From NCBI GenBank assembly GCA_017642885.1, contig JAEPOM010000024.1:1-40524 (forward strand): 40,524 nucleotides of DNA, in the 5' to 3' direction. This DNA is from Henriciella sp. Its GTDB lineage: Bacteria; Pseudomonadota; Alphaproteobacteria; Caulobacterales; Hyphomonadaceae. The notes below the pieces were generated by a model. That model was not told the origin of the DNA. It was given only the letters and a program-made list of their open reading frames with translations, and made no database searches. Positions 8,089-38,463 of this stretch are shown here, piece after piece (the first letter of the stretch is position 1; each line of letters opens with the position of its first letter). Made by a program: the position numbers and the translations under genes.

Positions 8089-8235
8089 ATTTGGTTCCAT
8101 CCATTGCTTCGTCACGCGCAGTAGCCTCAGAAAGGAACACGGAATGTGGCATCGAAAGGACAAAGCGTCCATGAGGGTTACACACTGGTTTGCTTTACTG
8201 CTGGTGTCAGCCGCCGGTAGACCCGACGACGCAGG

Positions 8236-8925
8236 TCAAAACCTGGCGCGACACGGCCGGCTTCGTGCTGGCTCTCCAAACAATATGTCAGGGATTGCTG
8301 TACCTTCGAGAATGTGTCCGACCAGCTTGGACTTTGGGTACATAAAGCCGTAGATCCAGTCGTTCTTGATCCGCCTGAGAACCCAGAGGGTATCTTCGCC
8401 GAAATCGAATGCGACAATGACGCCGACATGAACCCACTCTTTCAACAACCTTGAATCATGGATCCAAAGTTGGTGGACGAGACCATCCTTCGTAGGGTGT
8501 TTGAAACCGTCAGCCAAGGCACGCAAGAACTGAGAATGATCAGTCTTCCGACGCAGCCCGTCAACGATCCAGAACATTGGTTGGTGAAACCTGGTTCTCT
8601 TCCGAGCCTCATCTGACCTCAAATATGAGTGCTGAAACTCGACAGCCAAGCCTTTGGGCGTTTTGACGTCCGCGATGTGCAGCTCTCCATGTTCGTCGCG
8701 AGCGGCGATTTCTTGCCAGTCAACGGGGAAGTGACTCTTCCAGTCCCGGTGCCATTGCGTCTCGTTTTCCCACCAATGATCACAATGGCGTAGGCCCTTG
8801 TGCGCCCAGTGCCACACCTTCTTCGTTCCGCATTTGGCGATGAGCTCTGCATTGCATCCCGGACATCTGCCGGTTGCCCGAGGTGTCGCTTCAATTCGCT
8901 GGCCGTCATTGATGGCAAAACGCAT
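8236..8925 (-). CDS. CoiA-like nuclease-family protein
   Basis: This 229-residue protein resembles the competence CoiA family. A zinc-ribbon-like beginning (RCPGCNAELIAKCG) leads into WHWAHKGLRHCDHWWENET. The nuclease core then reads W..HFPVDWQE...ELHIADV...GLAVEFQHS, with acidic residues in HIADV and VEFQHS fitting a PD-(D/E)XK-type endonuclease site. CoiA acts on DNA during recombination in competent Gram-positive bacteria; many relatives occur in mobile elements. The gene follows sbcC by 57 bases on the same strand, so it probably joins the SbcCD operon and may process ends exposed by that nuclease. No strong ribosome-binding site precedes the ATG at 8925. Confidence 0.72.
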   Translation of the reverse strand: MRFAINDGQRIEATPRATGRCPGCNAELIAKCGTKKVWHWAHKGLRHCDHWWENETQWHRDWKSHFPVDWQEIAARDEHGELHIADVKTPKGLAVEFQHSYLRSDEARKRTRFHQPMFWIVDGLRRKTDHSQFLRALADGFKHPTKDGLVHQLWIHDSRLLKEWVHVGVIVAFDFGEDTLWVLRRIKNDWIYGFMYPKSKLVGHILEGTAIPDILFGEPARSRPCRARF

Positions 8926-8982
8926 TGCTATGACACCAAATAGAAGCGCTGATGTTCTAAACGCGCGTATTCCATAGCGGGC

Positions 8983-11900
8983 CTAGCGTGCCTCGGTGCG
9001 GGAGTGAATATGCGATCCGGTCGGTGTGACTTCGACATCGAAGCCGGCTGTGATCAGGGTCTTCACCTGTTCGGTGTGGGAGATCAGACCTACCGCCCGC
9101 ATTTCGTTAGTAAGCGAATAAAGCGTCTCGAGAGCAGTGTTCAGTGTCTCGTCATCGAGCGTGCCAAATCCCTCGTCGATGAAAATTGCGTCGAGCCTGA
9201 TTCCGCCGCTATTTTGTTGAACAACATCCGAGAGTCCGAGTGCCAGTGCCAACGAGGCCTGGAAACCCTCTCCTCCCGACATCGTCCTGGTCGATCTAGA
9301 CTTCTCTGTATTGGCATCGTGAACCGCGATATCGAGACCGCGTTTGCTGACGCCACCGGATACCTCTTCCGGCCGATGCAGCTGATAGCGATTGCTAGAC
9401 ATCGGTCCCAGTCTGAGGTTTGCCGCGACAAGCACTTCGTCGAACATGGCCGCTATGGCAAAATCGGGCAACCGCACCTTCCGGTCGTTGTTGCCGTTCA
9501 CCAGATTTGCGATTTCGCCTAGCGGTGCGTAGCGTTCCTCCAAGGAGGCGATTTTTTCGGAGATCTTTTCCACTGACTGCAACACGGCCGCCTTGCGGTT
9601 CAGTTCCGTCTGAAGTCGTGTCCGCTCATTTTGGTTGGTTTCCAGCTCGGAGGCACAGCCGGACACTTTTTCCTTAAGGCTCTTCATGTCCGGATGTTCA
9701 CGCTCGCCGATCTCCGCCTCGAGACGCTTTAGCCGATCTGTGTTTGCCGCGAGGCTCTGCTCATGATCCTTGACAGCCGTCTCCAGTTCGTCGACTTGGT
9801 CAAGATCCGTTTTGGCAGACTGAAACAACTCTGCGCTCAGTCCCGCATTCGCGAGTCCATTGGCAAGTGTACTGCCTGCATCTTCCAAAATGTCACGGGC
9901 GCGGGCCAGTGCCTTTTCCGCCCCGATGCGGCCTTCCGATGCGGCGGCGAGCGCAACGGCAGTTTCCTTGTCAGCATCGAGAGCTGCCTGATGCATTTTG
10001 GCCAGTTCATCTCGTTCGACAATGGCGGCCCCGAGGGCATCTGTCAGGTGGTTTGCCTCGCGGTACGCCACCGGAACCTCTCGCAACATTGCATCCAGTT
10101 GGGTCTGGAGGGTCGACATTTCTGCCTTACTATCCAGCAAGGCTTGTTTGGCCTCTTCATGGAACCGAACAGCATCACTTGCTGTGGTCTCGGCTTCATT
10201 GAGCCGCTCGGCCAGAATCGCGAACCGGTCATCCGCATCGAGAGCGGCTTTCTTTTCGGCCGCCGCCGCAAGTAGCGGCAGCAATGTCTCGCGAGAGCGA
10301 GCAGGTGCCGAGTGATCCGCAAGCGCGCGCTCCCGGTCTTCCAACAAAACCTCTGCCGAGCGTAAGGCACTTCGGGCCTCCTGTTCAGCCGCCTTTGCAA
10401 GTTCCAATGCCTTTTGCGCCGTGTCGAACGCCTCATGGCGACCCTGACGCGAGGAATCGCCGGTGGCCGGCGCCGGGTGATGGGTTGAACCGCAAGCCGG
10501 GCAGGGCTCGTTATCGCGAAGTTTGCGGGCCACATGAAGCGCTTGGATGTCGGTCAAATCCTGTTCGGCGGACGCAAAGGTGGCAGTACAGCTCTGCAGG
10601 TGTTCGGCGGTTCGCTGATGTGCCTCCGCTAAAGCCCCAACCTTCTCTTTCTGCTGATCTCTGCGGATAACGGCCTTCTCATAGTCGCCGAGAACTTCAG
10701 CTTCTCTTTGCAGGGCCACCAATTGGGCCGACGCATCGCTGAGAGCCTTGTCATGTTCAGGTTGCAGCTTCTGCAGGGCCCGAAGGGCAACCAACTGCTC
10801 ACCGGCATAATCGGCCGCCTGCTTCGCTGCGAGCGCCTGGTTGTTTGCACCGGCAACCGCGTCGGTCTTCACGGTGAGATCGTTCTTGAGCTCGGCGGTC
10901 TGATCGAGCGTTGTCTTCCAGCGATCGAGCTCTTGCACTTTGCGGTCTGTGGCCTCCCTTCGGGGGGCGTTTTCAGTTGCACGCGAAAGCGCATTCTGCG
11001 CGGCCGTGCGCGCGGTGTCCGCAGCGGCAGACTTACTTTCAGCTGCCGCAAATGCGGTTACCGCGTCAGTGTGATTGCTGCGTGCGCCTGCCTCTGCCTT
11101 CTCGAGAGGCACGAGCGTCGCGGCAATCCGCGCCCGTTTTGATCGAGCCCGCAAATTCTCGATTTTCTGGCCTCGGCGTTCGAGAGTAGGTTTGTCCCGT
11201 TTGGCATCCTCAAGGTCTGAGAATTTCTGAGATAGTGCCTCAGCTGCCGCCAGCTTCTTGCGATGGTCAGCGAGGGTCGTTTCGAGCGACTCGATCCGAC
11301 CATTGATCGCGACTATGGCCGCCTTGTCCGTGGCAGTATCAGCCCGAAATGCATCTTCTGTTTCGTGATTGAGCTGTGTTTCCCGCTTGAGCCGCTCATC
11401 ATGAATCTCTTGGCGTAGGTTGGCAGCTTGACGTTTTATTCTTTCGACAAATCCCTCATAGAGCTGCACATCAAAAAGCCGCTTCAGAATGGGGGAGCGC
11501 TCATCGGAGCTGGCGGTCAGGATCTTGCGGAAGTCTCCTTGCGGTAGCAGGACAATCTGCCGGAACTGGGCGGCATTGTAGCCCAACAGTTCTTCGATCA
11601 TTCCGTCGACGGCTTTAACTTTTTTCTCAGCCAGGACGGCGCCACGGTGGTCTGGAGTGATTTCATCAAGCGCCATGCCCGTGGCCTTGAAGAGATAAGC
11701 TTCGTGGGGCTGATGTGCCGTGCCCGCCCCTCGATTTGCGGCGCGGGTCTGGCTAGGCACCCGATGGATCACATAGCGCTCTTCGCCAAGCTCGAACACA
11801 AGCTCGACCTCTGTCAACGCAGTTGCGCCGGCGTGGTGGGAGATCATGTCGTCTGCAGATCGCTCAGCGCCGGAGGACTCGCCAAAGAGGGCGAACGAGA

Positions 11901-26952: not shown

Positions 26953-27617
26953 CGAGTCCGAGCGATATTCGCGATCTGCTCTTGCGGTTCACGGGCCCCG
27001 ATCTGACGCAGACGCTTGCGCGGATCGAGAGCTCGGTGCAAGGCGTGGCGGCGGAGGATTGCGCAGACTTTCTCGAGGGAGCTGGCGTGGGTCGAGAGGC
27101 GTTGGCCGCGGCCGCTGAAATGAAGCGTCTGGCAGTGCAGATCAATGTGACCATCCATGCGCTCGGCATCCTGCTATGCCTTCCGCACATCCTGGAACAA
27201 GACGAGCGGGTCGAACATGTGCCGCTCGGCGCCGGCAATACGGGGCGCGAGTTCGATCTGGAGACTAACCTGCGGGTCGCCGAGTTCAAATTTATACGAT
27301 GGCGGGGCGGCGCGGAATCGATCCGCCAGAATTCGGTGTTCAAGGATTATCTGTTGCTCGCCGGGCATCCGACGGCGAAGCGAAAATATCTTTATTTGTT
27401 CGGCACTGAGCATGCCCTCAAATTCCTGCGGGGCGGCCGCGCCCTGTCGAGCGTGCTGAGCCGGAATGACAAGCTGCAGAAGATGTTCGCGGATCGCTTT
27501 GGCGGGGCGTTTCGGACGGTTGGGGAATACTATACGGTTCACGCCGACGCGGTGCAGATCGAGGATGTCTCGCCGTGGCTTTTAGAGCTCGCGGAGGATC
27601 TAATTTCAGAGGACTGA
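26949..27617 (+). CDS. Small PD-(D/E)XK nuclease-like partner protein
   Basis: This 222-residue protein has a compact nuclease core: GREFDLETNLRVAEFKF gives D103 and E112-x-K114, the standard D-x(8)-ExK layout. A helical region of about 80 residues comes before and LRGGRALSSVLSRNDKLQKMF follows. No named family is recognised. It starts in a four-base overlap with the 514-residue nuclease-like gene, which strongly suggests a two-protein system. Two different nuclease folds encoded back to back suggest a restriction or defence pair (inference). Confidence 0.7.
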   Translation: MTSPSDIRDLLLRFTGPDLTQTLARIESSVQGVAAEDCADFLEGAGVGREALAAAAEMKRLAVQINVTIHALGILLCLPHILEQDERVEHVPLGAGNTGREFDLETNLRVAEFKFIRWRGGAESIRQNSVFKDYLLLAGHPTAKRKYLYLFGTEHALKFLRGGRALSSVLSRNDKLQKMFADRFGGAFRTVGEYYTVHADAVQIEDVSPWLLELAEDLISED

Positions 27618-27878
27618 GTCGTGGTCCTGGATGTTACGATGCTGACCTGATGTGGTGGAGGCCTCCGCTCCCGGCATCATGATGTGCCATGCAGGTGGGA
27701 CGAACCTGGTGCTCTTCCCAGCAAACCTGACAAGTGCGGACTCTGTGTCAGTGCATGACCCCGACGGGCGACTTCCGAAAGACCAGTCTTCATGGACAAA
27801 GTCCAATGACCCGGTCGCAAGACTTAAGCACCTTCGTCGTGCGCGCCGATCGTGCGGGCAGACCGATTCGAGCGTTGT

Positions 27879-28895
27879 TCAGCGCGTAATATCGACCGCC
27901 ACGGGGAAGTGGTCGCTTGTCCCCGAATTTTCGGGATTGTTCTCATTGAGGCGGAACTTCTTCGGGCGCAGCGTCTGGACGCTTTGGTCGAAATACAGTT
28001 GCTCAAGATCGTTTATAACGAGGCGGTAGGTCCGCATATCGGCGGACCATCCTACAGCCCCAGGCCTTTGAGTGATGATGTCGAGATATGACCACGTGTT
28101 CTCGCGCGAGAACCACTGGCTGCCGTTGCCGACACAGCCATTGTCCAGCTGGTCAGGCAGGGCCCATCCGGCAAACAGCCGCTGTAGGCTCGCCTGCTCA
28201 TCATCGCGGCAGTTAAAGTTGAAATCGCCGGCGATCATCACGGTCTGGTCGGACGGTAAATCCATTGCCAGATCGCGAATGGCTTGTGCAGCGATTTCCC
28301 TGCAGACGGTGGGATTCCGACCGGAGGGGAAGTGAACGCCAAATACTGTCAGCTTATCCCCATTGGGCAATTCGAACCCTACTTGTACAGCATCGCGTGT
28401 TGAACCGACCGATCCGTCATCCTCGTCACAAGCGCGCTCTTCCGTCAGATCGATCACGTGACTTTCCGGCGTCGATCCGGCTGCCAAGGGAAGCTTGGCG
28501 AGGATCGCCACGTCGATGCCTCGAAAGTCCGGTTTCGGCACCGGTCGGTTAGGGTCCGCGTCGAAAAAGACTTTTGTCTGGTAGGCATCAGAGGGCGCCA
28601 GAGCTGCCTTCAGTGCGTCCAGCGAGGCTTCGCTTTCGATCTCGGTCAAGATAAGAATATCGGGTCCTTCGCCGCCCTCGAACCTATTGATGACCCGACC
28701 GATCGCGGCGGCCTTGGCGCTCATGTAGGCCGCGTCATTCAGAGTTTCGCGGTCGTTCGGGTAGCGGGGATCATCCTGATCGTCGAAGAAATTCTCGACA
28801 TTGTAGGTCATGAGAGTGACGCGAAGATCCGATTGAGCCAGTGAGGGGGCTGCGGTTAAAGCTATCAACGGCAGTGCGACGACCAGGGATCGCAT
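27879..28895 (-). CDS. Secreted endonuclease/exonuclease/phosphatase-family protein
   Basis: The 338-residue protein starts with a signal peptide (MRSLVVALPLIALTAAPSLAQ). The mature part has the EEP fold motifs: LMTYNVENFFDD, ILTEIES, GVHFPSG, IAGDFNFNC and the terminal SDHFPVAVDI, including the catalytic Asn, Glu, Asp and His. Such enzymes hydrolyse nucleic acids or phosphodiesters with Mg2+, here in the periplasm or outside the cell. It may scavenge phosphate from extracellular DNA. It lies 55 bases downstream of the next minus-strand gene. It ends 260 bases from the nuclease-like pair; that gap shows nothing identifiable. Confidence 0.85.
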   Translation of the reverse strand: MRSLVVALPLIALTAAPSLAQSDLRVTLMTYNVENFFDDQDDPRYPNDRETLNDAAYMSAKAAAIGRVINRFEGGEGPDILILTEIESEASLDALKAALAPSDAYQTKVFFDADPNRPVPKPDFRGIDVAILAKLPLAAGSTPESHVIDLTEERACDEDDGSVGSTRDAVQVGFELPNGDKLTVFGVHFPSGRNPTVCREIAAQAIRDLAMDLPSDQTVMIAGDFNFNCRDDEQASLQRLFAGWALPDQLDNGCVGNGSQWFSRENTWSYLDIITQRPGAVGWSADMRTYRLVINDLEQLYFDQSVQTLRPKKFRLNENNPENSGTSDHFPVAVDITR

Positions 28896-28950
28896 GAATG
28901 AAACTCCCTATGGGGGCTTTGGGTATGCCGCCAACCGAAGACAAACGTCA

Positions 28951-29598
28951 TCAGTCGGACAGGGATGACGACATTACTACGTACTTCGATTGCTCATCAC
29001 GCTCGACCCGTTCAAAGAGGATGAAGTCTCGAGGATGGCAGCTGAGGACATCGTCCGGAAAATGCCCCCGCTTCGCAGCCTCGGCCTCAGGTTCAGAAAG
29101 ATTGGCACATTTCGGTTCGTCACCGCCGCTGTAGACGATTGCGTAACGCCGCTCACTTGGAAGCCGCGCGATAAACGTGGCGGCAATCTCACCTTGCATG
29201 AAACCGGAGAGCTTTAGCATCAGCGTCTTGGTGTGTTCGAATGCGACGCCGTCTCGGGATTTGTGATTGTGCCATGAACATAGCGGCATCAGGTAGCTGT
29301 CAGAACCAAACTCAACCTGTCCATCTTCGTTGGTGGTCATATGCCCGCCGACGCTGAACTTTGGGTGTGAGTTCCCCGCGGGTGTTTCGTTCGTCACGTA
29401 ACAGTTCGAATTGATGCCGTTTGCAATCAACAGACCTTTCCAGTTCTCACCATTGATCTCCGGATCGTTCGAACTGCCATCGACGTTATAGAGTACGCCG
29501 GAAAAGTTGATCAGCTGCGAGCCAGTTGAGAAAAGCTCAACAGTCCCCCATCGATCTACAAAGTCCGCAAGGCGCTCTCTTTGTGCATTCAAATCCAT
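28951..29598 (-). CDS. Hypothetical protein with possible HNH-like motif
   Basis: This 215-residue protein is of no recognised family. Its centre reads HPKFSVGGHMTTNEDG, then YLMPLCSWHNHKS, which resembles a short HNH/treble-clef region (GGHM followed by LCxxHN) found in some small nuclease-like proteins. The C-terminal half has a FMQGEIAATFIARLPSERR strand-helix segment. No signal peptide is visible. The ATG at 29598 has no strong ribosome-binding site. It precedes the secreted EEP gene by 55 bases and could be co-transcribed with it. Confidence 0.5.
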   Translation of the reverse strand: MDLNAQRERLADFVDRWGTVELFSTGSQLINFSGVLYNVDGSSNDPEINGENWKGLLIANGINSNCYVTNETPAGNSHPKFSVGGHMTTNEDGQVEFGSDSYLMPLCSWHNHKSRDGVAFEHTKTLMLKLSGFMQGEIAATFIARLPSERRYAIVYSGGDEPKCANLSEPEAEAAKRGHFPDDVLSCHPRDFILFERVERDEQSKYVVMSSSLSD

Positions 29599-29864
29599 CG
29601 CTACAGATTAACGTTGGACGTGACTTCACGCAATCTGGGAACTTTTCTCCGAGTTGCTGTTACTCATTTCCGTCGGGTGTTTCGCGACTTGCTATGTTTC
29701 GCGCTTCGGTCCGCGTTCCAACCGGGCTGGTTGAGCCCCCCTGGAATGAGCCGATCCCTATTTGCCAACGGCCCCGATCTGTGCTCCCGGTTTCATCATC
29801 AAAAGTCCGCGCTCCAAGTGGAGTTGCAACTACGACTCTTGCTTAGATCGACCCGGCTCATCGC

Positions 29865-30223
29865 TCATAGAAAGCTCATCTGACCGCCTCTGGCACTCTC
29901 CGAGCTTTCGCTCAACGACGACAGTGTCACACCGAGTAAGCGAATGCCTTTCTGCCCAGGGAACAGCTCGGTGAGCATCGTTCCCGCGAGTTCACCGATT
30001 TCGCGTTCGCTTCGCATGACGTGTCCGACCGTTCGACTGCGGGTGATCTGCTGGAAGTCTGCATATTTCACCTTCAGCGTGACAATGCGTCCGCTGATCT
30101 GCTTATTTGAGGCGTGGCGCCAGACTATCTCAGCAAGCGGTCACAGCTCTGCCTTTGCCGCTTCAAGATCGAAGATGTCGGCGCCAAGCGCTGACGCACT
30201 GTCTGCACTCGGGCCTTCACCGC
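29865..30223 (-). pseudogene. dinB: dinB (DNA polymerase IV) C-terminal remnant
   Basis: Minus-strand reading gives GADIFDLEAAKAEL, then a TGA (30141-30143), then in the same frame PLAEIVWRHASNKQISGRIVTL, KVKYADFQQITRSRT and a tail ending RGGQMSFL. This is the little-finger domain and C-terminus of translesion polymerase DinB. The first 200 or more residues (palm and fingers) are missing and a nonsense codon interrupts what remains. The fragment starts at the stop codon of the oxygenase-methyltransferase gene. It marks a site where an insertion or deletion replaced most of a core gene. Confidence 0.8.
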
Positions 30224-32560
30224 TTACAGTCGCGCTCGGCGGTATTCGTTGACATCCGTGATCTGTAGTTTACTGGCAAGGGCTCTTAGTAGTGGGAAAG
30301 CCTCATTAATTCCTTGTGCTTCCCGGATCATCGATCGGGCATCGTCGACACGGCCAAGTGTCGCGAAGCAGCTAGCGAGATTGCAAAGTGTGCGCACATC
30401 TACGCCATCGAGTTTCAAGGACTTTTTGTAGTAGTGGATCGCGCGTTCGTGCTCTCCCATAGAGTGAAACACGGTGCCGATTTCAAAGCACAGATCAGGA
30501 TAGTCCTCCTTGCAGAATGCGTCCTGCCAAACGGATTCCAGTTGCTCGCGGAATGTGGATCGCCGTTCCTGAGGCAGACGTTCAGCGGCATAACGCCTCA
30601 AGCCTGAATACAATTGACGAAAGGCAGCCGGGTCGCAGTGAGACATCTGCAGCGCATATGGCAATAGTCCGCCCGCGTCTTCGCGCGCTTCAAGCGTTTG
30701 CACAAGCCTGTCGATTTCTACGAAGCTGAGGTCCCGGAGGTCAGAGACGATGGCGCAACAGATCTCTTCTATGGCGTCGTCATTCCCGCCGCGCCCAGCG
30801 ACGACCAAGGACAAGGGGTCGTTTGAAAAGAGCGTGGCGGTGCGACAGCCGAAGTGTTCTAGCATAGCGACCATACCCGGCAGAAACACCGGAGCTGACA
30901 CCGTTTGATGGTCCTCGATCGACACCTTGCCCGAGGCGCGAAACGCATCTGCTTCCAGGAACTTGTCCGCAATGAGCCAGTAGCTCGCGCCAGAAGAAGC
31001 CGCAAACATTGACTGCAGCACCTCGAACGACACGGGCGACATTGGAAGCTTCGAGAGGCCTCGCTCGTTTGAGACCTGATTTAGGATCTCGACCAACTGA
31101 TCCGACACATCAGATGCTTGAGCATCTCTGAATGCATAGCGCCACGGTGTCTCGTTGAGGCGCCCCAGGTCAATATGCCCGAGCTTCAGGCGCGGACCCG
31201 AATTCTCGAAGATGTCGAATGGAAGAGAGTCGAAAAAGTAATTGGCAATATAGACGGTGAGGCGGCCCTCGGTCCTGGACGAAATGGACGCTCGAACATG
31301 CTCGTGCGTGATATCGCCTGCGATGCAGGCAATGTTCCTGATACTTATTGATGAGTCTGTGCAGAGGCTTTTCGAAATTCTTTCTAGCGCGCGTTCGGAG
31401 CAATCATGGGCGATGTATCGGACCGGCGCCGTGAGAGACGCTTGGCTCAATGCCAACAGCAGTTTTTTGGTGAACTTTCCGGACCCGACTCCGAGCTCAA
31501 CGACCGAGATCTCTTCGCCGGGGTGCAGTTCGGAGATTTGCGCGATGGCATTTGCATAAGAACCCGCTACCGAGCGGGAGCACGTGACCCTGTGGGGGAC
31601 ACCTTTCCCATTCCAGAGGCTGCCGGGATTGTCCTTGTAAATGTCGAGTGCTTCGCGCCAAAGCGGCGCTTTCCCGATTGGACAGGGTCGCTCGAGTGTG
31701 CTTGCCGACGTGTCCATCTCTTCGAGAATGATTGTGCCATCAATTGCCTTGTCGGGCGGTTTGTTGCCAGCGGCAGTAGTCGCGCTCGCCCAAACCTTGG
31801 TCGGTCCCTCTTCGCGAATGGCAAAGACATGACCGATCAGCCAGCGATAGGCCTCGCCCTCATGCTCCGGCTTTGCCAGCAGAGGCGTCGTCTGGTGCCA
31901 AAACGGCTGTCGAAATACGGAAATTCCGCCACTTCTGGAAATGTCCCATGATTGGGAGAAGTCGCCATCTTTCTCATGAAGGAAATATTGTGCCTCCACG
32001 GCGGGGCTCGACAGCATGAACTGGATGTCAACGTAGCCATCACGTGCCCACTCGTATTCCGGATGATGGTCATTGTGTGGGCCGACATAGTCTCCAGCCT
32101 TGTACCGGATGATTTGCGTCCCATGACCTCCGGACAACTTCAATCCCGTTGCCGCTTCTGCAAACGCCGTGAAACCGCTGCTCGCAAGCATCTTGAAGAG
32201 ACCAAGTGCTTCCACAACCCGCATGGCGTCAGCGTCGCGTCCGTCCAGAATGACCGAATCCACGCGCATCGACTTCCCGAAGCTCTCGGAAAAATTCCGT
32301 TGCATGGATGAAATCCAGCCCGGATCGACCCCGGCGTGGATGGGCTTCAGCCTTGGCTTCAGGTGCGATTCGAGGGCTTGCAGGCACTCTTCGCACGCGC
32401 GCGCCGGAATGATATCTGGCTCGATGAAAAAGAAACTGCCAAACGGGTTGATCGGTGCGCGTTTTTCCCGGCTTCGCTCACCGACAGCGCGGATCTGGTC
32501 TGCCGAACACCATTCATGGAAGTCGGTGGGGAAGACCGGTGCGATCCGGTCCTCAGTCAT
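30224..32560 (-). CDS. 2-oxoglutarate/Fe(II) oxygenase - methyltransferase - TPR fusion
   Basis: The 778-residue protein has three domains. Residues about 100-250 form a prolyl-hydroxylase-type dioxygenase: IIRYKAGDYVGPHNDHH (H162, D164 metal ligands), QPFWHQTTPL (H222) and YRWLIG (R239, 2-oxoglutarate). Residues about 345-560 are a SAM methyltransferase: VVELGVGSGKF (354-362), then IANYFFDSLPFDIF, which recalls the MidA/NDUFAF7 group that methylates arginine. The last 100 residues have TPR-like helices (EIGTVFHSMGEHERAIHYYKKSL). It would hydroxylate and methylate a substrate, with TPRs for docking. Its ATG lies inside the last codons of the repeat-cupin gene (eight-base overlap), which makes that protein the obvious partner. 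No similar fusion is known to me. Confidence 0.75.
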   Translation of the reverse strand: MTEDRIAPVFPTDFHEWCSADQIRAVGERSREKRAPINPFGSFFFIEPDIIPARACEECLQALESHLKPRLKPIHAGVDPGWISSMQRNFSESFGKSMRVDSVILDGRDADAMRVVEALGLFKMLASSGFTAFAEAATGLKLSGGHGTQIIRYKAGDYVGPHNDHHPEYEWARDGYVDIQFMLSSPAVEAQYFLHEKDGDFSQSWDISRSGGISVFRQPFWHQTTPLLAKPEHEGEAYRWLIGHVFAIREEGPTKVWASATTAAGNKPPDKAIDGTIILEEMDTSASTLERPCPIGKAPLWREALDIYKDNPGSLWNGKGVPHRVTCSRSVAGSYANAIAQISELHPGEEISVVELGVGSGKFTKKLLLALSQASLTAPVRYIAHDCSERALERISKSLCTDSSISIRNIACIAGDITHEHVRASISSRTEGRLTVYIANYFFDSLPFDIFENSGPRLKLGHIDLGRLNETPWRYAFRDAQASDVSDQLVEILNQVSNERGLSKLPMSPVSFEVLQSMFAASSGASYWLIADKFLEADAFRASGKVSIEDHQTVSAPVFLPGMVAMLEHFGCRTATLFSNDPLSLVVAGRGGNDDAIEEICCAIVSDLRDLSFVEIDRLVQTLEAREDAGGLLPYALQMSHCDPAAFRQLYSGLRRYAAERLPQERRSTFREQLESVWQDAFCKEDYPDLCFEIGTVFHSMGEHERAIHYYKKSLKLDGVDVRTLCNLASCFATLGRVDDARSMIREAQGINEAFPLLRALASKLQITDVNEYRRARL

Positions 32561-33416
32561 GAGTTCTTATTTTCACAGTGTCCGGATTGACAGATTTCAC
32601 CGCGATGCTGTCGCCCTGGATACTTTTGACGGCGATTTCCTGGTTCTCCACAGATTTGATCGCCACGGAGTCTCCCTTTGCGACAGACTTGATGGCCACA
32701 TCGACGTCTCCTACCGACTTGATGGCAACCCGATCACGGTCGACCGGCCGGACCGTCAGGCCCTCTTCAACAGACTTGATTGCCAATCCGCCTTCTGAGA
32801 TCGCTTTCAACGCAAATTCTGAGTCGCCGACGGACTTTACAGCGATACCTGCATCGGTGATCGACTTGACTGCAATCTCGCCGCTGACAGACTTGATAGC
32901 AACATATTGCTCCGGCCCGACGTCCTTGACTGCAATCTCTTCGAAGCTCTCGCCGTTGTCGTCGATGGACATGATGTTTTCAGCCGAATGCTTGATGTTC
33001 GTGTTGCCGCCATCAACCACCGTGCCATCCGTCTTGTAATAGTAGAAACGGCCGTCCTCCATGATGTAGACGGGCGTTGCCGAGAAGAGCTTGTATTGAA
33101 TGGAATCTTCTTCTGCAAAGTAGCCCGCGTGGCGCTGACCTGCAGGGATGATATCAAACGTTCCGGGCTCAATGATCCGATCCCGGTTGTCGTCCCTGAT
33201 CCTGCCGCTGAGGAGAAAAAGTGTCTGCACTGTCGGATGGTAGTGGACCGGGAACGTCGCGCCCTTGTCAATTCGCGCTAGCTCGATCGTGGTCCCCATT
33301 ACCGGGTCGCAGTAGAGGACTTTGTTGTAGACCCCTTTCCACGGCATCGGCTTCCAAGGGTGATCGTTGTGCTGGCCGACCTGCGCGAAATATCGCACTA
33401 TATCAATTGGATGCAT
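32553..33416 (-). CDS. Cupin protein with about twelve C-terminal A-[IV]-K-S-[VI] repeats
   Basis: The ATG at 33416 is preferred over 33446 because GGGAGG lies eight bases before it; 287 residues. Residues about 30-120 form a cupin: FPVHYHPTVQTLFLLSG (metal His pair), IIEPGTFDIIPAGQRHAGY (third His). Residues about 161-287 are about twelve repeats of nine to eleven residues with consensus [IVL]-A-[IV]-K-S-[VI] then a short polar turn with Gly, Asp or Glu. Such a strand-turn pattern could build a beta-solenoid, or present a repeated Lys-Ser site for modification. The gene leads a coupled pair with the oxygenase-methyltransferase. I do not recognise this architecture. Related free-standing cupins (ChrR-like) bind metal. 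Confidence 0.7.
   Translation of the reverse strand: MHPIDIVRYFAQVGQHNDHPWKPMPWKGVYNKVLYCDPVMGTTIELARIDKGATFPVHYHPTVQTLFLLSGRIRDDNRDRIIEPGTFDIIPAGQRHAGYFAEEDSIQYKLFSATPVYIMEDGRFYYYKTDGTVVDGGNTNIKHSAENIMSIDDNGESFEEIAVKDVGPEQYVAIKSVSGEIAVKSITDAGIAVKSVGDSEFALKAISEGGLAIKSVEEGLTVRPVDRDRVAIKSVGDVDVAIKSVAKGDSVAIKSVENQEIAVKSIQGDSIAVKSVNPDTVKIRTHD
32556..32936 (-). repeat. Coding repeats encoding the A-[IV]-K-S-[VI] motif
   Basis: About twelve 27-33 base units, most exactly 30 bases, each encoding [IVL]-A-[IV]-K-S-[VI]-x(3-5). One unit varies strongly (LTVRPV) and two moderately (IAVKDV, FALKAI). The DNA copies differ at many third positions while the protein motif holds, so the motif has been kept by selection and is not a recent tandem duplication. 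Confidence 0.85.
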
Positions 33417-34019
33417 CGAACCGTCCTCCCAACTTTTACATATCAATAGATTGCTGAATAATTAATGATACCTTATGTTTGGTCAGAAATCCATCCTTTC
33501 AGAACACTTGGTACTGTCTCGCTGCACCTACATGAATACTGTTATGGGGACGCGGCTTAGTGCGATTGCAACTGCTCACGAGTATACCGCCTGAAGGAGG
33601 TTATCGCCGCGTTGGCAGCAGTAACGCTCGGTCGTTGTTGTTCCGACGGTGGTGATTGGCTGCTGGTCAGGGTGATGATGATAATTCTCAGTTATCGTAA
33701 CCTTGAAAACCGGGCGGCTGGCGAAAGCTCACGGCCGCAGTAATCCATTGACTTGGCCGACGTTGAGACAGAACGTGATTAGTTGAGGCGATGTGGCCGG
33801 CAGCTAGCCTTGTTCTTCGTTTCGGTCACAGAAACGTGAATGCCGGAAAGCCGAGTTAAAACAATGGTTTAAGTTTTGACGGTATTTTTGACGGTACACG
33901 AGTCAAACTGGGCGAAAAACACACATAAAATCAGTCAGTTGTGCATGCAGGATATGATGGAGTGGGAATGATCCCAAATCGCCAATTGGCTGGGCGCCTT
34001 CCTCGGACGGCAATTCGGG
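33417..34019. other. Non-coding junction between accessory region and TRAP operon
   Basis: About 600 bases with no credible gene. It contains the promoter side of the repeat-cupin gene (AT-rich at 33430-33480) and, at 33874-33896, a short tandem repeat listed separately. Base composition is lower in GC than the TRAP operon to the right. The accessory region probably ends here. Confidence 0.5.
33874..33896. repeat. Tandem TTTTGACGGTA repeat
   Basis: TTTTGACGGTA occurs at 33874-33884 and again at 33886-33896, a 12-base tandem period. It sits in the spacer where composition shifts from accessory to core-like DNA. It could be part of an attachment or integrase arm site, but no integrase gene is near, so this is only suggestive. 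Confidence 0.35.
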
Positions 34020-35345
34020 TCATGCGGCCAGCGCCGTATCGATCGCCCGGCCGAGCTTGCCGACCAGTTCACCGATCTGGTCTTCGGTGATGATGAAGGG
34101 CGGTGCCAGCAGAACGTGGTCGCCGCGGCGCCCGTCCACCGTGCCACCGGCCGGGTAGCAGATCAGGCCTTCCGCCATCGCCGCCGCTTTGATCTTTGCG
34201 TGCAGCTTGCGCGCGGGATCAAAGCTTGTCTTCGTCGCCCGGTCCTCGACCAGTTCGATGCCCCGGAACAGGCCCCGGCCGCGAATGTCGCCGACATGCG
34301 GATGCTGGCCGAAGGCCGCATTCAAGGCCGCTTCCAGTGCTTCGCCTCGCGCGCGGACCCGGTGCAGCAGGTCGCGGTCCAGAATGGCATCGAGCACCGC
34401 CTTGCCGGCGGCTGCGGCCAGCGGATGGCCGTGATAGGTGTGCCCGTGCTGGAAGCTGCCCGAGCCGCTCGCGATCGCCCCGTAGATTTCGTCCGAACAC
34501 AGCATCGCGCCAATCGGCGCATAGCCGGCGCCGAGCCCCTTGGCGAAGGTCACGATGTCGGGCGCGATCCCGTCCTGCTCGCAGGCGAACAAGGTGCCGG
34601 TCCGGCCCATGCCGCACATCACCTCGTCGAGGATCAGCAGTACGCCGTGACGGTCGCAGATTTCGCGAATGCGCCGGAAATAGCCGTCAACGGCCGGCAC
34701 CGCGCCTGCCGTCGCGCCGACGACCGGCTCGGCGATGAACGCCATGACGGTCTCTGCTCCGAGCCGTTCGATCTCCGTTTCCAGTTCGTTGGCGACGCGC
34801 TGGCCATAATCGAAGGCGCTCTCGCCCTCTTCACGGAAGTGATACTCAAAGCACGGCGCGACATGATGGGTCTCGACCAGAAGCGGCTGGTACTTCTCGC
34901 GCCGCCAGGCATTGCCGCCGGCGGCCAGCGCGCCGAGCGTGTTGCCGTGATAGCTCTGTCGCCGGGCGATCAGATGGCGCCGCTCGGGCTGGCCGATCTC
35001 CAGATAGTATTGGCGCGCCAGCTTGATCGCCGCTTCGACCGCTTCCGATCCGCCGGATAGAAGATAGACCTTGCCGATTCCCTCCGGCGCGTTCGCCACC
35101 AGGCGGTCCGCCAGCTCTTCGGCGGCCTTCGATGTGAAAAAGCCGGTGTGCGCGAAAGCGATCCGGTCCAGCTGGTCGTGAATTGCCGCCCGCACGTCGG
35201 GATCGGAGTGGCCCAGACAGGAGACCGCCGCGCCGCCCGATCCGTCCAGATAGCGCCGGCCGGCCTCATCGACGATGTAGCACCCCTCACCGCGTACGGC
35301 GGCGGGCAGGGCGGCGGCCCCCCGCCCGAAGATCCGGCTCGTCAT
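34020..35345 (-). CDS. Class III aminotransferase of the TRAP operon
   Basis: This 441-residue PLP enzyme has the class III pattern: YLDGSGGAAVSCLGH, SGGSEAVEAAIKLAR, SYHGNTLGALA, LDEVMCGMGR (PLP Asp) and FAKGLGAGYAPIGA (Schiff-base Lys). It is annotated generally as an aspartate-aminotransferase-family protein; the amino donor and acceptor are not evident. It follows the universal stress gene by three bases and so shares the operon with the TAXI-TRAP transporter. The likely job is the first breakdown step of the amino compound or keto acid the transporter imports (inference). Confidence 0.88.
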   Translation of the reverse strand: MTSRIFGRGAAALPAAVRGEGCYIVDEAGRRYLDGSGGAAVSCLGHSDPDVRAAIHDQLDRIAFAHTGFFTSKAAEELADRLVANAPEGIGKVYLLSGGSEAVEAAIKLARQYYLEIGQPERRHLIARRQSYHGNTLGALAAGGNAWRREKYQPLLVETHHVAPCFEYHFREEGESAFDYGQRVANELETEIERLGAETVMAFIAEPVVGATAGAVPAVDGYFRRIREICDRHGVLLILDEVMCGMGRTGTLFACEQDGIAPDIVTFAKGLGAGYAPIGAMLCSDEIYGAIASGSGSFQHGHTYHGHPLAAAAGKAVLDAILDRDLLHRVRARGEALEAALNAAFGQHPHVGDIRGRGLFRGIELVEDRATKTSFDPARKLHAKIKAAAMAEGLICYPAGGTVDGRRGDHVLLAPPFIITEDQIGELVGKLGRAIDTALAA

Positions 35346-35348
35346 CGG

Positions 35349-35780
35349 TCACTCTCCGCGAACCACGAACACGGACTGCTTTGCGTGGCGGACGACACGC
35401 GCCGAATTCGGCCCGAGCAGATAATCGCTCAGCTCCGGCGTATGCGAGGCCATGACGATGGCATCGACGCCCAGCTTGTTCGCCGCCGTGATGATCTGGT
35501 CGTAGACCCTGCCGTGCATGACGTGCGGGTGCACTTCGATATCGTCGGGCACGTTGACGCGCACCCATTCGGTGAGCTTCTCGCCGACCTCACGCAGCGC
35601 CTTGTCCTCGAAATCCTTGTCGAAATAGCCGCTGACCACCGACATGCCGAAGTCCGGCATGACGGTGACCACGTGCAATACCGGGTTTTCCGGCTTGCTG
35701 AGCCGCAGCGCCGCGGGCAGCGCCTTCTTCCAGGAGGCGTCGGCGGACAGGTCGATGGGCAGCAATACGGTCTTGAACAT
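35349..35780 (-). CDS. Universal stress protein (UspA family)
   Basis: This 143-residue single-domain protein starts MFKTVLLPIDLSADASWKKAL and ends with LGPNSARVVRHAKQSVFVV, the ATP-binding Usp pattern. VDAIVMASHTPELSDYLLG holds the preceding loop. Usp proteins are often encoded with TRAP transporters (as TeaD is with TeaABC) and can regulate uptake by binding ATP. It lies 20 bases after the permease gene and three before the aminotransferase. Confidence 0.92.
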   Translation of the reverse strand: MFKTVLLPIDLSADASWKKALPAALRLSKPENPVLHVVTVMPDFGMSVVSGYFDKDFEDKALREVGEKLTEWVRVNVPDDIEVHPHVMHGRVYDQIITAANKLGVDAIVMASHTPELSDYLLGPNSARVVRHAKQSVFVVRGE

Positions 35781-35800: not shown

Positions 35801-38437
35801 TCAAAAGGCCGGCTGGGTCTGGCGGCGGCGCTGCAACATGATGACCACGCCAAGCAGCAGCAGTGCCGGAATGTAGAAGACCTGCGCCGGCATGCGCTGG
35901 TTGGGCACCTGCACGGAGGCCAATTCCACCGGCGTGTCGGAATAGAAATCGAAATCGGCGAGCTTCTCGGCGGTGGTGGTGCCGAACATCGGCTCGTCCA
36001 TACGCACCGTGTCGCCGTCGGGGATCAGCAGCAGGCCCGAATTGGCGACCCGTTCGGCCGCCGTTGCGCCTTCGGCATACATGACCAGCGTCGTCTCGGC
36101 CGTTTCGCCCGTGTTGAAGTCGGGACCGCGCACCAGAAGCCGGATGCGGTCGCCTTCCGCCACATCGCCGACCACCTGTTCGAACTGCACCGGAGGCACG
36201 TCGCGATAGGGGCTCTGCACCATGTTGAGCCAGACATTGGGCACAAACAGGGTGAAGGCGACCAGAAGCAGGGCCGCGCTCTCGTAAATGCGCGACCGGG
36301 CGAGGAAATAGCCCTGTGTCGCCGCTGCGAAAAGCAGCATGGCGAACGTCGCCGTTATGAAGACGAACACGGCCTGAGCGATTCCCTCCCATGTCCCCAG
36401 ATCGACACCGTAAAGGATCAGTGTCGGGTTGAAGATGAAGAGGAACGGCAGCGCCACCGTCCGCAGGCTGTAGAAGAAAGCGGTGAAGCCGGTCTTGATC
36501 GGATCGCCGCCCGAAACGGCGGCCGCCGCGAAGCTGGCAAGACCCACCGGCGGCGTCACATCGGCCATGATGCCGAAATAGAAGACGAACAGATGCGCCG
36601 CGATCAGCGGCACGATCAGCCCTTCCTGGGCGCCGAGCGAGACGACGACCGAGGCCATCAGCGACGAGACCACGATATAGTTGGCCGTGGTCGGAAGCCC
36701 CATGCCGAGGATCAGCGAGAAGATCGCGATCAGCACCAGCATGACCAGCAAAATGCCGCCCGACAGCTGTTCGACGAGGCCGGCCAGTTCCGTGCCGATC
36801 GGCGTCTTGGTGACCGTGGCGACGATGATGCCGGCCGCTGCCGTTGCGACGCCGATGCCGATCATGTTGCGGGCGCCGGCGATCAGGCCCTCGCGCAGAT
36901 CGACCAGGCCGGCCATGAACTCGTTCACCAGCTCACCGCCTTCGCCCCGGAACACCGTCTTGAGGGGCCGTTGCGTGACGATGATCAGCAACATCAGCGA
37001 GGTGGCGTAGAAGGCCGACTTGGCCGGGCTCTGGCGCTCGACCATCAGGAACCAGATCAGGACGACGATCGGCAGCACATAGTGCAGGCCCGTCGCATAG
37101 ACTTCGCCCACCGTCGGCAGCTTGAATTCGCTCTCGTTCGGGTCGTCGATCTCAAGGTCCGGCCGGCGCGACGCGACCATGACCAGGCCGATATAGAGGG
37201 CGACCAGAACGATCATCATGATCGGCGCCGACAGGTCCGGCAGGGCCGTCTCCAGCGCATCGACGCCGTAGATCAGCGCGGTGAAGGCGACGCCGGCAAC
37301 GATGAAGCCGGCAAGGAACTTGGCCAGCATGCCGGTCATGGACTTGGATTCGCCGAGCGCCGGCATTTCCTTTTTCAGCGCTTCCAGATGCACGATATAG
37401 ACGAGCGCGATGTAGGAGATCACCGCCGGTATGAAGGCGTGCTTGATCACCTCCACATAGGGAATGCCGATGAATTCGACCATCAGGAACGCGGCTGCGC
37501 CCATCACCGGCGGCATGATCTGCCCGTTGACGGACGAGGCGACTTCCACCGAACCGGCCTGTTCGTTGGTGAAGCCGACCCGTTTCATCAGCGGGATGGT
37601 GAAGGTGCCGGTGGTGACGACATTGGCGATCGACGAGCCGGAAATCACGCCTGTCATGGCCGAGCCGACGACGGCGGCCTTGGCCGGACCGCCGCGCAGA
37701 TGGCCAAGCCCGGCAAAAGCGAGCTTGATGAAGTAATTGCCGGCACCGGCCTTGTCGAGCAGCGAGCCGAACAGGACGAAGAGGAAGACGAACGCCGTCG
37801 AAACGCCCAGCGGAATGCCGAACACGCCACCCGTATCCAGCCATTGAGCGTTGATCAGAGCCGTGAACGACAGCCCCTCATGCTCGATCAGGTCCGGGAT
37901 CAGCAAGCCTTGCCCGAAATAGGCATAGGCGAGGAAAAGCGAGCCGACCACCGTCAGCGCCGGGCCGAGCGCGCGCCGGCTGGCTTCGAGCAGGACGACA
38001 AGGCCCACCGCGCCGATGATCACCTGCGCCTGGGTCGGCAGGCCGGAGCGGGCGGTCAGCGCCAGCTCGTCCGAGAACCAGAACACGTAGAAGGCACAAA
38101 ACCCCGCAATCGCCGCCAGAACCCAGTCGAGAATGGGAACATGGTGGCGTGGCGAGGATTTGAGCGCCGGATAGGCCAGGAACGCCAGCACCACGGCAAA
38201 GGTCAGGTGGATGGGCCGGGTTTGCGACGAGTTGAGGACCGGCAGATACTCGCCGAACCACAATTGAGGCTGCGCGATCCAGAGCTGGAACAGCGACCAG
38301 ACCAGCGCAAGGCCGGCGATCAGGCCGGCGACTGTCTTGTTGGTCGGGACCCGCGCGCCGCTGTCGGCACTGGCCACCAGATCCTGCAGTTCCTCGTCGG
38401 TATATTGCCTGCCTTGGCTACCGGTCGCTTCACTCAT
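35801..38437 (-). CDS. TRAP transporter fused permease (DctQM type) with DUF3394 tail
   Basis: From ATG 38437 the protein has 878 residues (a TTG at 38452 would add five). It contains about 16 or more hydrophobic segments in the fused small-plus-large TRAP permease layout, with the large-subunit signature IVTTGTFTIPLMKRVGF region and GLPTTANYIVVSSLM. The C-terminal 180 residues match DUF3394, with hydrophobic helices and a soluble domain ending in VFYIPALLLLGVVIML. It carries substrates across the inner membrane with a sodium or proton gradient, using the TAXI binding protein encoded just upstream. Substrate unknown; TAXI systems often take glutamate or related acids. Confidence 0.93.
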   Translation of the reverse strand: MSEATGSQGRQYTDEELQDLVASADSGARVPTNKTVAGLIAGLALVWSLFQLWIAQPQLWFGEYLPVLNSSQTRPIHLTFAVVLAFLAYPALKSSPRHHVPILDWVLAAIAGFCAFYVFWFSDELALTARSGLPTQAQVIIGAVGLVVLLEASRRALGPALTVVGSLFLAYAYFGQGLLIPDLIEHEGLSFTALINAQWLDTGGVFGIPLGVSTAFVFLFVLFGSLLDKAGAGNYFIKLAFAGLGHLRGGPAKAAVVGSAMTGVISGSSIANVVTTGTFTIPLMKRVGFTNEQAGSVEVASSVNGQIMPPVMGAAAFLMVEFIGIPYVEVIKHAFIPAVISYIALVYIVHLEALKKEMPALGESKSMTGMLAKFLAGFIVAGVAFTALIYGVDALETALPDLSAPIMMIVLVALYIGLVMVASRRPDLEIDDPNESEFKLPTVGEVYATGLHYVLPIVVLIWFLMVERQSPAKSAFYATSLMLLIIVTQRPLKTVFRGEGGELVNEFMAGLVDLREGLIAGARNMIGIGVATAAAGIIVATVTKTPIGTELAGLVEQLSGGILLVMLVLIAIFSLILGMGLPTTANYIVVSSLMASVVVSLGAQEGLIVPLIAAHLFVFYFGIMADVTPPVGLASFAAAAVSGGDPIKTGFTAFFYSLRTVALPFLFIFNPTLILYGVDLGTWEGIAQAVFVFITATFAMLLFAAATQGYFLARSRIYESAALLLVAFTLFVPNVWLNMVQSPYRDVPPVQFEQVVGDVAEGDRIRLLVRGPDFNTGETAETTLVMYAEGATAAERVANSGLLLIPDGDTVRMDEPMFGTTTAEKLADFDFYSDTPVELASVQVPNQRMPAQVFYIPALLLLGVVIMLQRRRQTQPAF

Positions 38438-38463
38438 TGCGCGCCCCCGCAAAAATCGATCCC

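Follow-up and report, generated by a model that had tools for sequence, protein, structure and literature searches.

The stretch of 40,524 nucleotides at positions 1 to 40,524 of contig JAEPOM010000024.1 of Henriciella sp., called the window here, carries on its reverse strand a gene for a cupin protein that ends in a tail of short repeats, and this gene overlaps the next, which encodes a fusion of an oxygenase-like domain, a methyltransferase domain, and a tetratricopeptide repeat (TPR) region. The anatomy of this pair is real, rare, and unusual. Our tentatively favored reading of the sequences, with a probability of roughly 0.35, is that the two genes form a translationally coupled protein-modification pair, in which the fusion would act on the repeat tail.

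The repeats are a plausible candidate substrate of the fusion, given the apparent translational coupling of the two genes and the fit of a TPR region to such a task. We propose that (i) the tail would display a ladder of A-x-K/R side chains, to which (ii) the TPR part of the fusion would bind; that (iii) the oxygenase would hydroxylate, and the methyltransferase would methylate, side chains of the repeat motif, with Lys as the first choice and Ser as the second; that (iv) the cupin core may supply oligomerization, a metal, or further oxidation; and that (v) the functional product would be the tail itself, decorated and multivalent. That a single fused enzyme carries out both hydroxylation and methylation on the Lys (or Lys-Ser) of thirteen repeats, yielding a regularly decorated protein ladder, is a more doubtful proposition. 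Should the tail prove to be the substrate, one polypeptide would unite the hydroxylation and the methylation of a repeat protein, and the coupling of enzyme and substrate in translation would offer a compact route to a regularly decorated protein surface.

Layout of the gene pair and its translation

Both genes lie where the initial annotation had placed them, and the 8-base overlap that it described was confirmed. The features of the pair, all on the reverse strand, are as follows (aa, amino acids).

32553..33416, reverse strand: cupin gene, encoding the repeat tail at its C-terminal end; 287 aa, coordinates including the stop codon
33102..33380, reverse strand: cupin domain PF12973; aa 13-105, Pfam match E 9.7e-12
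32559..32936, reverse strand: repeat tail of 13 units, ~10 residues each; aa 161-286
33424..33430, reverse strand: GGGAGGA, Shine-Dalgarno-like, upstream of the cupin ATG; read from the sequence, position counted by hand
32553..32560, reverse strand: 8 nt shared by the end of the cupin gene and the start of the fusion gene, ATGACTGA
30224..32560, reverse strand: gene for the fusion of oxygenase-like, methyltransferase, and TPR parts; 778 aa, coordinates including the stop codon
31796..32560, reverse strand: oxygenase-like domain; aa 1-255, with H162, D164, H222, and R239
30872..31534, reverse strand: Methyltransf_28-type domain; aa 343-563, containing the stretches ELGVGSG and ANYFFD
30293..30496, reverse strand: TPR region; about aa 689-756

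The cupin start codon is the ATG at 33416, with GGGAGGA located 7 nt upstream, and inspection of the sequence at the start of the fusion gene revealed no visible Shine-Dalgarno-like element. Together with the 8-nt overlap, this suggests coupled translation, such that synthesis of the fusion enzyme would depend on ribosomes completing the repeats. Sites resembling promoters or terminators were no more frequent than expected from shuffled sequence, and their positions do not fit the operon in any case.

A tail of thirteen conserved repeats

The 13 repeat units start at aa 161, 172, 181, 191, 201, 211, 220, 230, 240, 251, 261, 271, and 281, with a spacing of 9-11 residues. The motif [IVL]-A-[IV]-K-S-[VI] fits nine of these units; position 4 is basic throughout (Lys in 11/13, Arg in 2/13), position 2 is Ala in 11/13, and position 5 is Ser in 9/13. 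Since the last unit (VKIRTH) is degenerate, the "about twelve" repeats counted in the initial annotation was the correct number. At a period of 10, the tail showed a self-identity of 30, as compared with a shuffle mean of 10.6 (sd 3.0), and the highest self-identity at any period from 3 to 34 over 5000 shuffles was 26.

Across the nine canonical units, the Ala and Lys codons agree fully at their first two positions, and third-codon-position identity amounts to 0.17 for Ala, 0.50 for Lys, and 0.44 for Ser. Because the synonymous positions are scattered while the residues stay, the units are, judging from their codons, old and maintained at the protein level, rather than recent DNA copies. The tail occurs again in P0001, a repeat-tailed cupin from Cognatiyoonia sp. 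IB215182 that is 94% identical to the window's protein. The two proteins differ at 2/78 motif positions (both at position 1 of the motif), at 5/54 other tail positions, and at 9/155 core positions; the comparison of motif with other tail positions (Fisher p 0.12) runs in the expected direction and is not significant.

From its patterning, namely a six-residue alternating stretch and G/D/E-rich turns, we infer that the tail may be a beta structure, with short strands alternating with turns rich in glycine and acidic residues. Visual inspection spoke against a pentapeptide-type helix. When the 128-aa tail was searched against phage records with the low-complexity filter on, no match at E 1 was found, and its best match in the PDB reached only E 1.6. 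Separately, aa 179-275 of the cupin protein (ORF 32556-33416, reverse strand), which lie in the tail, weakly match PHROG 18723, a phage family without known function (E 0.0085). In viral contigs, a back-translated two-unit pattern matched one stretch, which was rejected because it runs antisense to a longer open reading frame that contains a TAIDF tandem. This frame (L066 3515-4465, forward strand) presumably encodes a DNA methyltransferase; opposite its TAIDF tandem, the other strand reads as an AVKSM tandem.

The 12 spacers between the motifs bear on the form that the product might take. They are 3-5 residues long and variable in sequence; with length and sequence both varying, there is no constant cleavage site. 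The initial annotation had considered a multi-core modified peptide, that is, a ribosomally synthesized and post-translationally modified peptide (RiPP) precursor with the cupin as leader and the units as cores excised after modification. A repeated motif beside two tailoring activities would suit such a precursor, and borosins and polytheonamide-type RiPPs exemplify methyltransferases whose ribosomal substrate is linked or fused to them; polytheonamides carry both hydroxylation and N-methylation on one ribosomal peptide (PMC11285071). The window pair differs from these systems in having no leader-like precursor, no constant cleavage sites, and a cupin before the repeats, so that the leader would be a metal-site cupin; further, the words "cupin" and "tetratricopeptide" are absent from that review (PMC11285071). 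Among the adjoining genes, no protease or peptide exporter was recognized, and the TRAP-permease-like ORF lies ~2.4 kb away (35801-38452). The names of these genes are largely our assumption. A RiPP precursor is thus disfavored and very improbable, and a decorated or docking beta-repeat would be the better form of the substrate idea.

The tail might instead serve as a ladder-like binding face (for a polysaccharide, a nucleic acid, or a surface) or as an oligomerization element, with the fusion modifying another protein and the two genes coupled by a common process. In its favor, the constant A-x-K/R face could form a regular basic array, and tail-less genomes contain modules of the fusion. Against it, the tail has an overall excess of acidic residues, with 17 K+R versus 22 D+E in 132 residues, and the tight overlap favors a direct partnership. 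We consider this alternative unlikely.

An oxygenase-like domain fused to a methyltransferase and TPR

Fe(II)/2-oxoglutarate oxygenases bind iron through an HxD...H triad and 2-oxoglutarate through an Arg further downstream. The corresponding residues of the fusion, H162, D164, H222, and R239, are invariant in all 17 rows of alignment A4, occupy GPH(N/T)D and P(F/L)WH(Y/Q)TTPL stretches in a 21-row alignment, and are present in all four fusions that we identified, so that the H-x-D...H...R signature is complete. Within aa 1-255, no Pfam or NCBIfam family was recognized, and none of the 17 family members scanned gave a relevant match; a hit to a phosphogluconolactonase model in one of the 17 (E 0.0015) was taken as spurious. 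The domain therefore represents a conserved bacterial family outside the curated libraries searched (Pfam and NCBIfam). In the PDB, the family profile gave non-significant matches to a prolyl 4-hydroxylase over the HxD stretch (E 1.5) and to an isoleucine 4-hydroxylase over the His-to-Arg stretch (E 0.25). On motif grounds, we take it as a putative 2-oxoglutarate oxygenase family, which is open to assay independently of the substrate question.

The methyltransferase domain matches Methyltransf_28 (aa 343-563, E 5.2e-9, 36.4 bits against a cut-off of 23.3) and, just above its cut-off, the EgtD-type Methyltransf_33 (26.3 versus 23); TPR_1 matches at aa 689-718 (E 5.5e-9). Without the TPR, the methyltransferase profile found its best PDB matches in polyketide-synthase-type methyltransferases, over the S-adenosylmethionine (SAM)-binding stretch (E 0.002-0.01). 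Since these matches are remote and mixed, the acceptor cannot be named from sequence. NDUFAF7 methylates a protein arginine (PMC3829151), and the fusion resembles MidA/NDUFAF7 in carrying a Methyltransf_28 domain that scores over the family cut-off. It differs in that this domain is fused to others and is a remote match: a strong PF02636 gene elsewhere in the genome scores 178 bits, as compared with 39 for the fusion, which is hence not the main MidA-type gene. Because of this stronger gene, the MidA-type arginine methylation that the initial annotation had cited is not transferable to the fusion. Its description of an oxygenase-methyltransferase-TPR fusion held for the architecture and for the conserved oxygenase signature, whereas "MidA-like" applies only remotely and the 2-oxoglutarate assignment comes from the motif, with no significant match behind it. 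Elsewhere in the window genome, matches to the fusion cover TPR only, so that neither the oxygenase family nor the methyltransferase-TPR is represented a second time.

Distribution of the fusion, its modules, and the repeat cupin

At least three other fusions exist, namely P0004 (85% identical), P0005 (34%), and P0006 (35% over 57% of the query); as the best 8000 candidates were scored in both protein searches with the fusion, this count is a lower bound. In trees of both domains, the four fusions fall on one side of a branch (support of 100/100 for the oxygenase and 97/96 for the methyltransferase-TPR), which fits an origin of all four from one fusion event. The branch leading to the window-type methyltransferase is long, at 2.98 changes per column versus 0.78 for the oxygenase, with several rows of unusual letter make-up; a changed role of the methyltransferase part would fit this length. 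No fusion homologue was confirmed in viral contigs, GTDB contigs, phages, or, as a fusion, plasmids, and none was listed from the P0001 strain among the fusion matches. The plasmid search yielded a solo methyltransferase-TPR in Paenibacillus, with no recognizable cupin among its neighbors in a record that is not annotated there.

A profile search with the fusion also retrieved solo proteins that match the oxygenase part alone; at 1e-10, there were matches in 24 of 385 genomes of the class and in 7 of 398 genomes of the phylum, the window's own being included in both. The distinct other genomes comprise 19 with a solo oxygenase and seven with a solo methyltransferase-TPR (a TPR-only match, G580, was left out), and none of these 26 contains both modules at 1e-10. 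Since the solo modules occur without repeats, their ancestral substrates would have been something else. Within the family, the fusion was found in one of 105 genomes, its own, with four others matching the TPR region only; the repeat cupin was likewise found only in its own genome, both among the 105 family genomes and among 398 order genomes, with one further weak, core-only match in each set. The 26 flanking loci and the window contig together yielded 2659 ORFs with a length of 50 aa or more, of which the window's protein is the only one with at least two KS motifs (ORF, open reading frame). The flanks of the solo loci span 4 to 17 kb, and partners farther away are excluded only by the genome-wide search for the repeat cupin. 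Period-10 ORFs ~5 kb from one solo oxygenase (L032 12880-13396) were rejected as a DNA tandem read in three frames, without KS. In another genome, a second, partial solo oxygenase (L040 7321-7653, reverse strand), with stop codons inside the match, lies ~1.5 kb from the full copy.

Neighbors were inspected in 16 of the 26 solo loci. In two loci of one genus (L030 7724-8464 / 8461-10272 and L037 7376-8134 / 8131-9933), the solo oxygenase overlaps the next gene, which we take to be an oligoendopeptidase PepF, by 4 nt; in four loci of other genera (L029, L031, L034, and L039), it adjoins a gene for what is presumably a UbiD-like decarboxylase. The PepF-like linkage hints at peptide or amino-acid substrates of the oxygenase family. 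No neighbor in the inspected loci explains the window pair; by our assumed gene names, these neighbors look metabolic or housekeeping and are not repeat proteins.

The cupin core and a metabolite-tailoring alternative

The cupin is of the ChrR type (PF12973, 45.1 bits against a cut-off of 27), and its putative metal ligands, H58, H60, Q64, and H96, are identical in all four aligned cupins. A search of 5.8 billion proteins gave three matches among 2380 scored candidates, one of them with repeats. Of the remaining relatives, P0002 is labeled "quercetin dioxygenase-like" by its source, and P0003 (158 aa), which may be a fragment, is predicted without a tail. In the plasmid search, the repeat cupin retrieved one Agrobacterium cupin, matching over the core only, and the cupin alignment gave no match in viral contigs.

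These observations bear on an alternative that is nearly as likely as the protein-modification pair, namely that the genes form a small-molecule tailoring pair, in which the cupin would be a metabolite dioxygenase or isomerase, the fusion would hydroxylate and methylate the same metabolite, and the tail would act as a scaffold or docking element, perhaps via the TPR. In its favor, the core resembles small single-domain cupins (3ebr_A, E 8.8e-6, as well as P0002), is predicted without the tail in P0003, and keeps its metal-site residues, and the neighbors in the inspected solo loci appear metabolic. On the other side, just two genes overlap or closely adjoin on the strand, and a plain scaffold leaves the Lys or Arg at position 4 of all 13 units unexplained.

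Points that weigh against modification of the tail

Several results count against a protein-modification pair acting on its own repeat tail. The tail was seen in only one further protein, the near-identical P0001, and a test of its hydrophobic moment did not favor strand over helix (0.36-0.42 at 160-180 degrees versus 0.44 at 100). The putative oxygenase has no significant match to a known 2-oxoglutarate oxygenase, and its top PDB match is an unrelated binding protein (E 0.092). The TPR already accompanies the solo methyltransferase, and hence need not have been recruited for the tail. Moreover, none of the 26 solo-module genomes encodes a repeat-tailed cupin, the four weak matches there being to the cupin core only, and the searches revealed no further, independent locus that holds both genes, relatives of the two never being shown on one contig.

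Relation to known systems

AspH, UTX, FIH, and ALKBH8 would be precedents for the protein-modification pair in mechanism only. FIH is a single-gene animal enzyme that is not fused to a methyltransferase or TPR, and its repeat is unrelated to the window tail. FIH, a 2-oxoglutarate oxygenase, hydroxylates residues in many ankyrin repeats (PMC3569879), and the proposed pair would be the same in having one oxygenase act on many repeats of a repeat domain.

AspH and UTX both bind their protein substrates through TPR domains, and the substrates of AspH are EGF domains, a repeat-type domain family (PMC12816917). Like the window fusion, AspH combines TPR and a 2-oxoglutarate oxygenase in one chain, and its TPR is needed for substrate binding (PMC12816917); unlike the fusion, it has no methyltransferase, and its TPR is N-terminal. 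AspH was not among the PDB matches of the oxygenase-family profile. ALKBH8 shares with the fusion a 2-oxoglutarate oxygenase and a SAM methyltransferase in one protein, and the two domains act in turn on the same tRNA wobble uridine (PMC4492958); it differs in its tRNA substrate and in having an RNA-binding motif instead of TPR. Our literature search, within a limited collection and set of terms, returned nothing on the pair or the fusion and no paper that names IB215182.

Genomic neighborhood

Directly after the fusion gene, and slightly overlapping its end, lies a remnant with an internal stop (29865-30239, reverse strand; ends counted by hand), which we take to be the C-terminal part of DNA polymerase IV (DinB) and which is possibly an insertion or recombination scar. 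A neighboring gene of the exonuclease/phosphatase family (27879-28895) occurs in two of 29 genus genomes, including its own, and the other copy is 45% identical. The G+C content averages 0.577 over the window; it is 0.48-0.59 in 29401-33900, 0.61-0.70 on the right side, and 0.55-0.61 on the left (27001-29400), so that the contrast of the pair region is mainly with the right side. These features fit a location of the pair in a variable region and a recent gain.

Such a setting raises the alternative that the pair is a relic or neutral association, recently gained, whose overlap has no functional meaning. The dinB-like remnant, the neighbor that is rare in the genus, and the failure to find either gene in relatives among the 105 family genomes would agree with this; on the other hand, both frames are intact, as are those of the 85% identical fusion and the 94% identical cupin, and the units keep their residues despite diverged synonymous positions. 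We regard a relic as quite improbable.

Searches of Pfam, NCBIfam, and PHROG up to E 1 found nothing that matches a 215-aa ORF (28951-29598, reverse strand) with a LMPLCSWHNHKS stretch. On the far side of the pair, 34020-35345 presumably encodes an aminotransferase, 35349-35780 a UspA-like protein, and 35801-38452 a TRAP-type permease.

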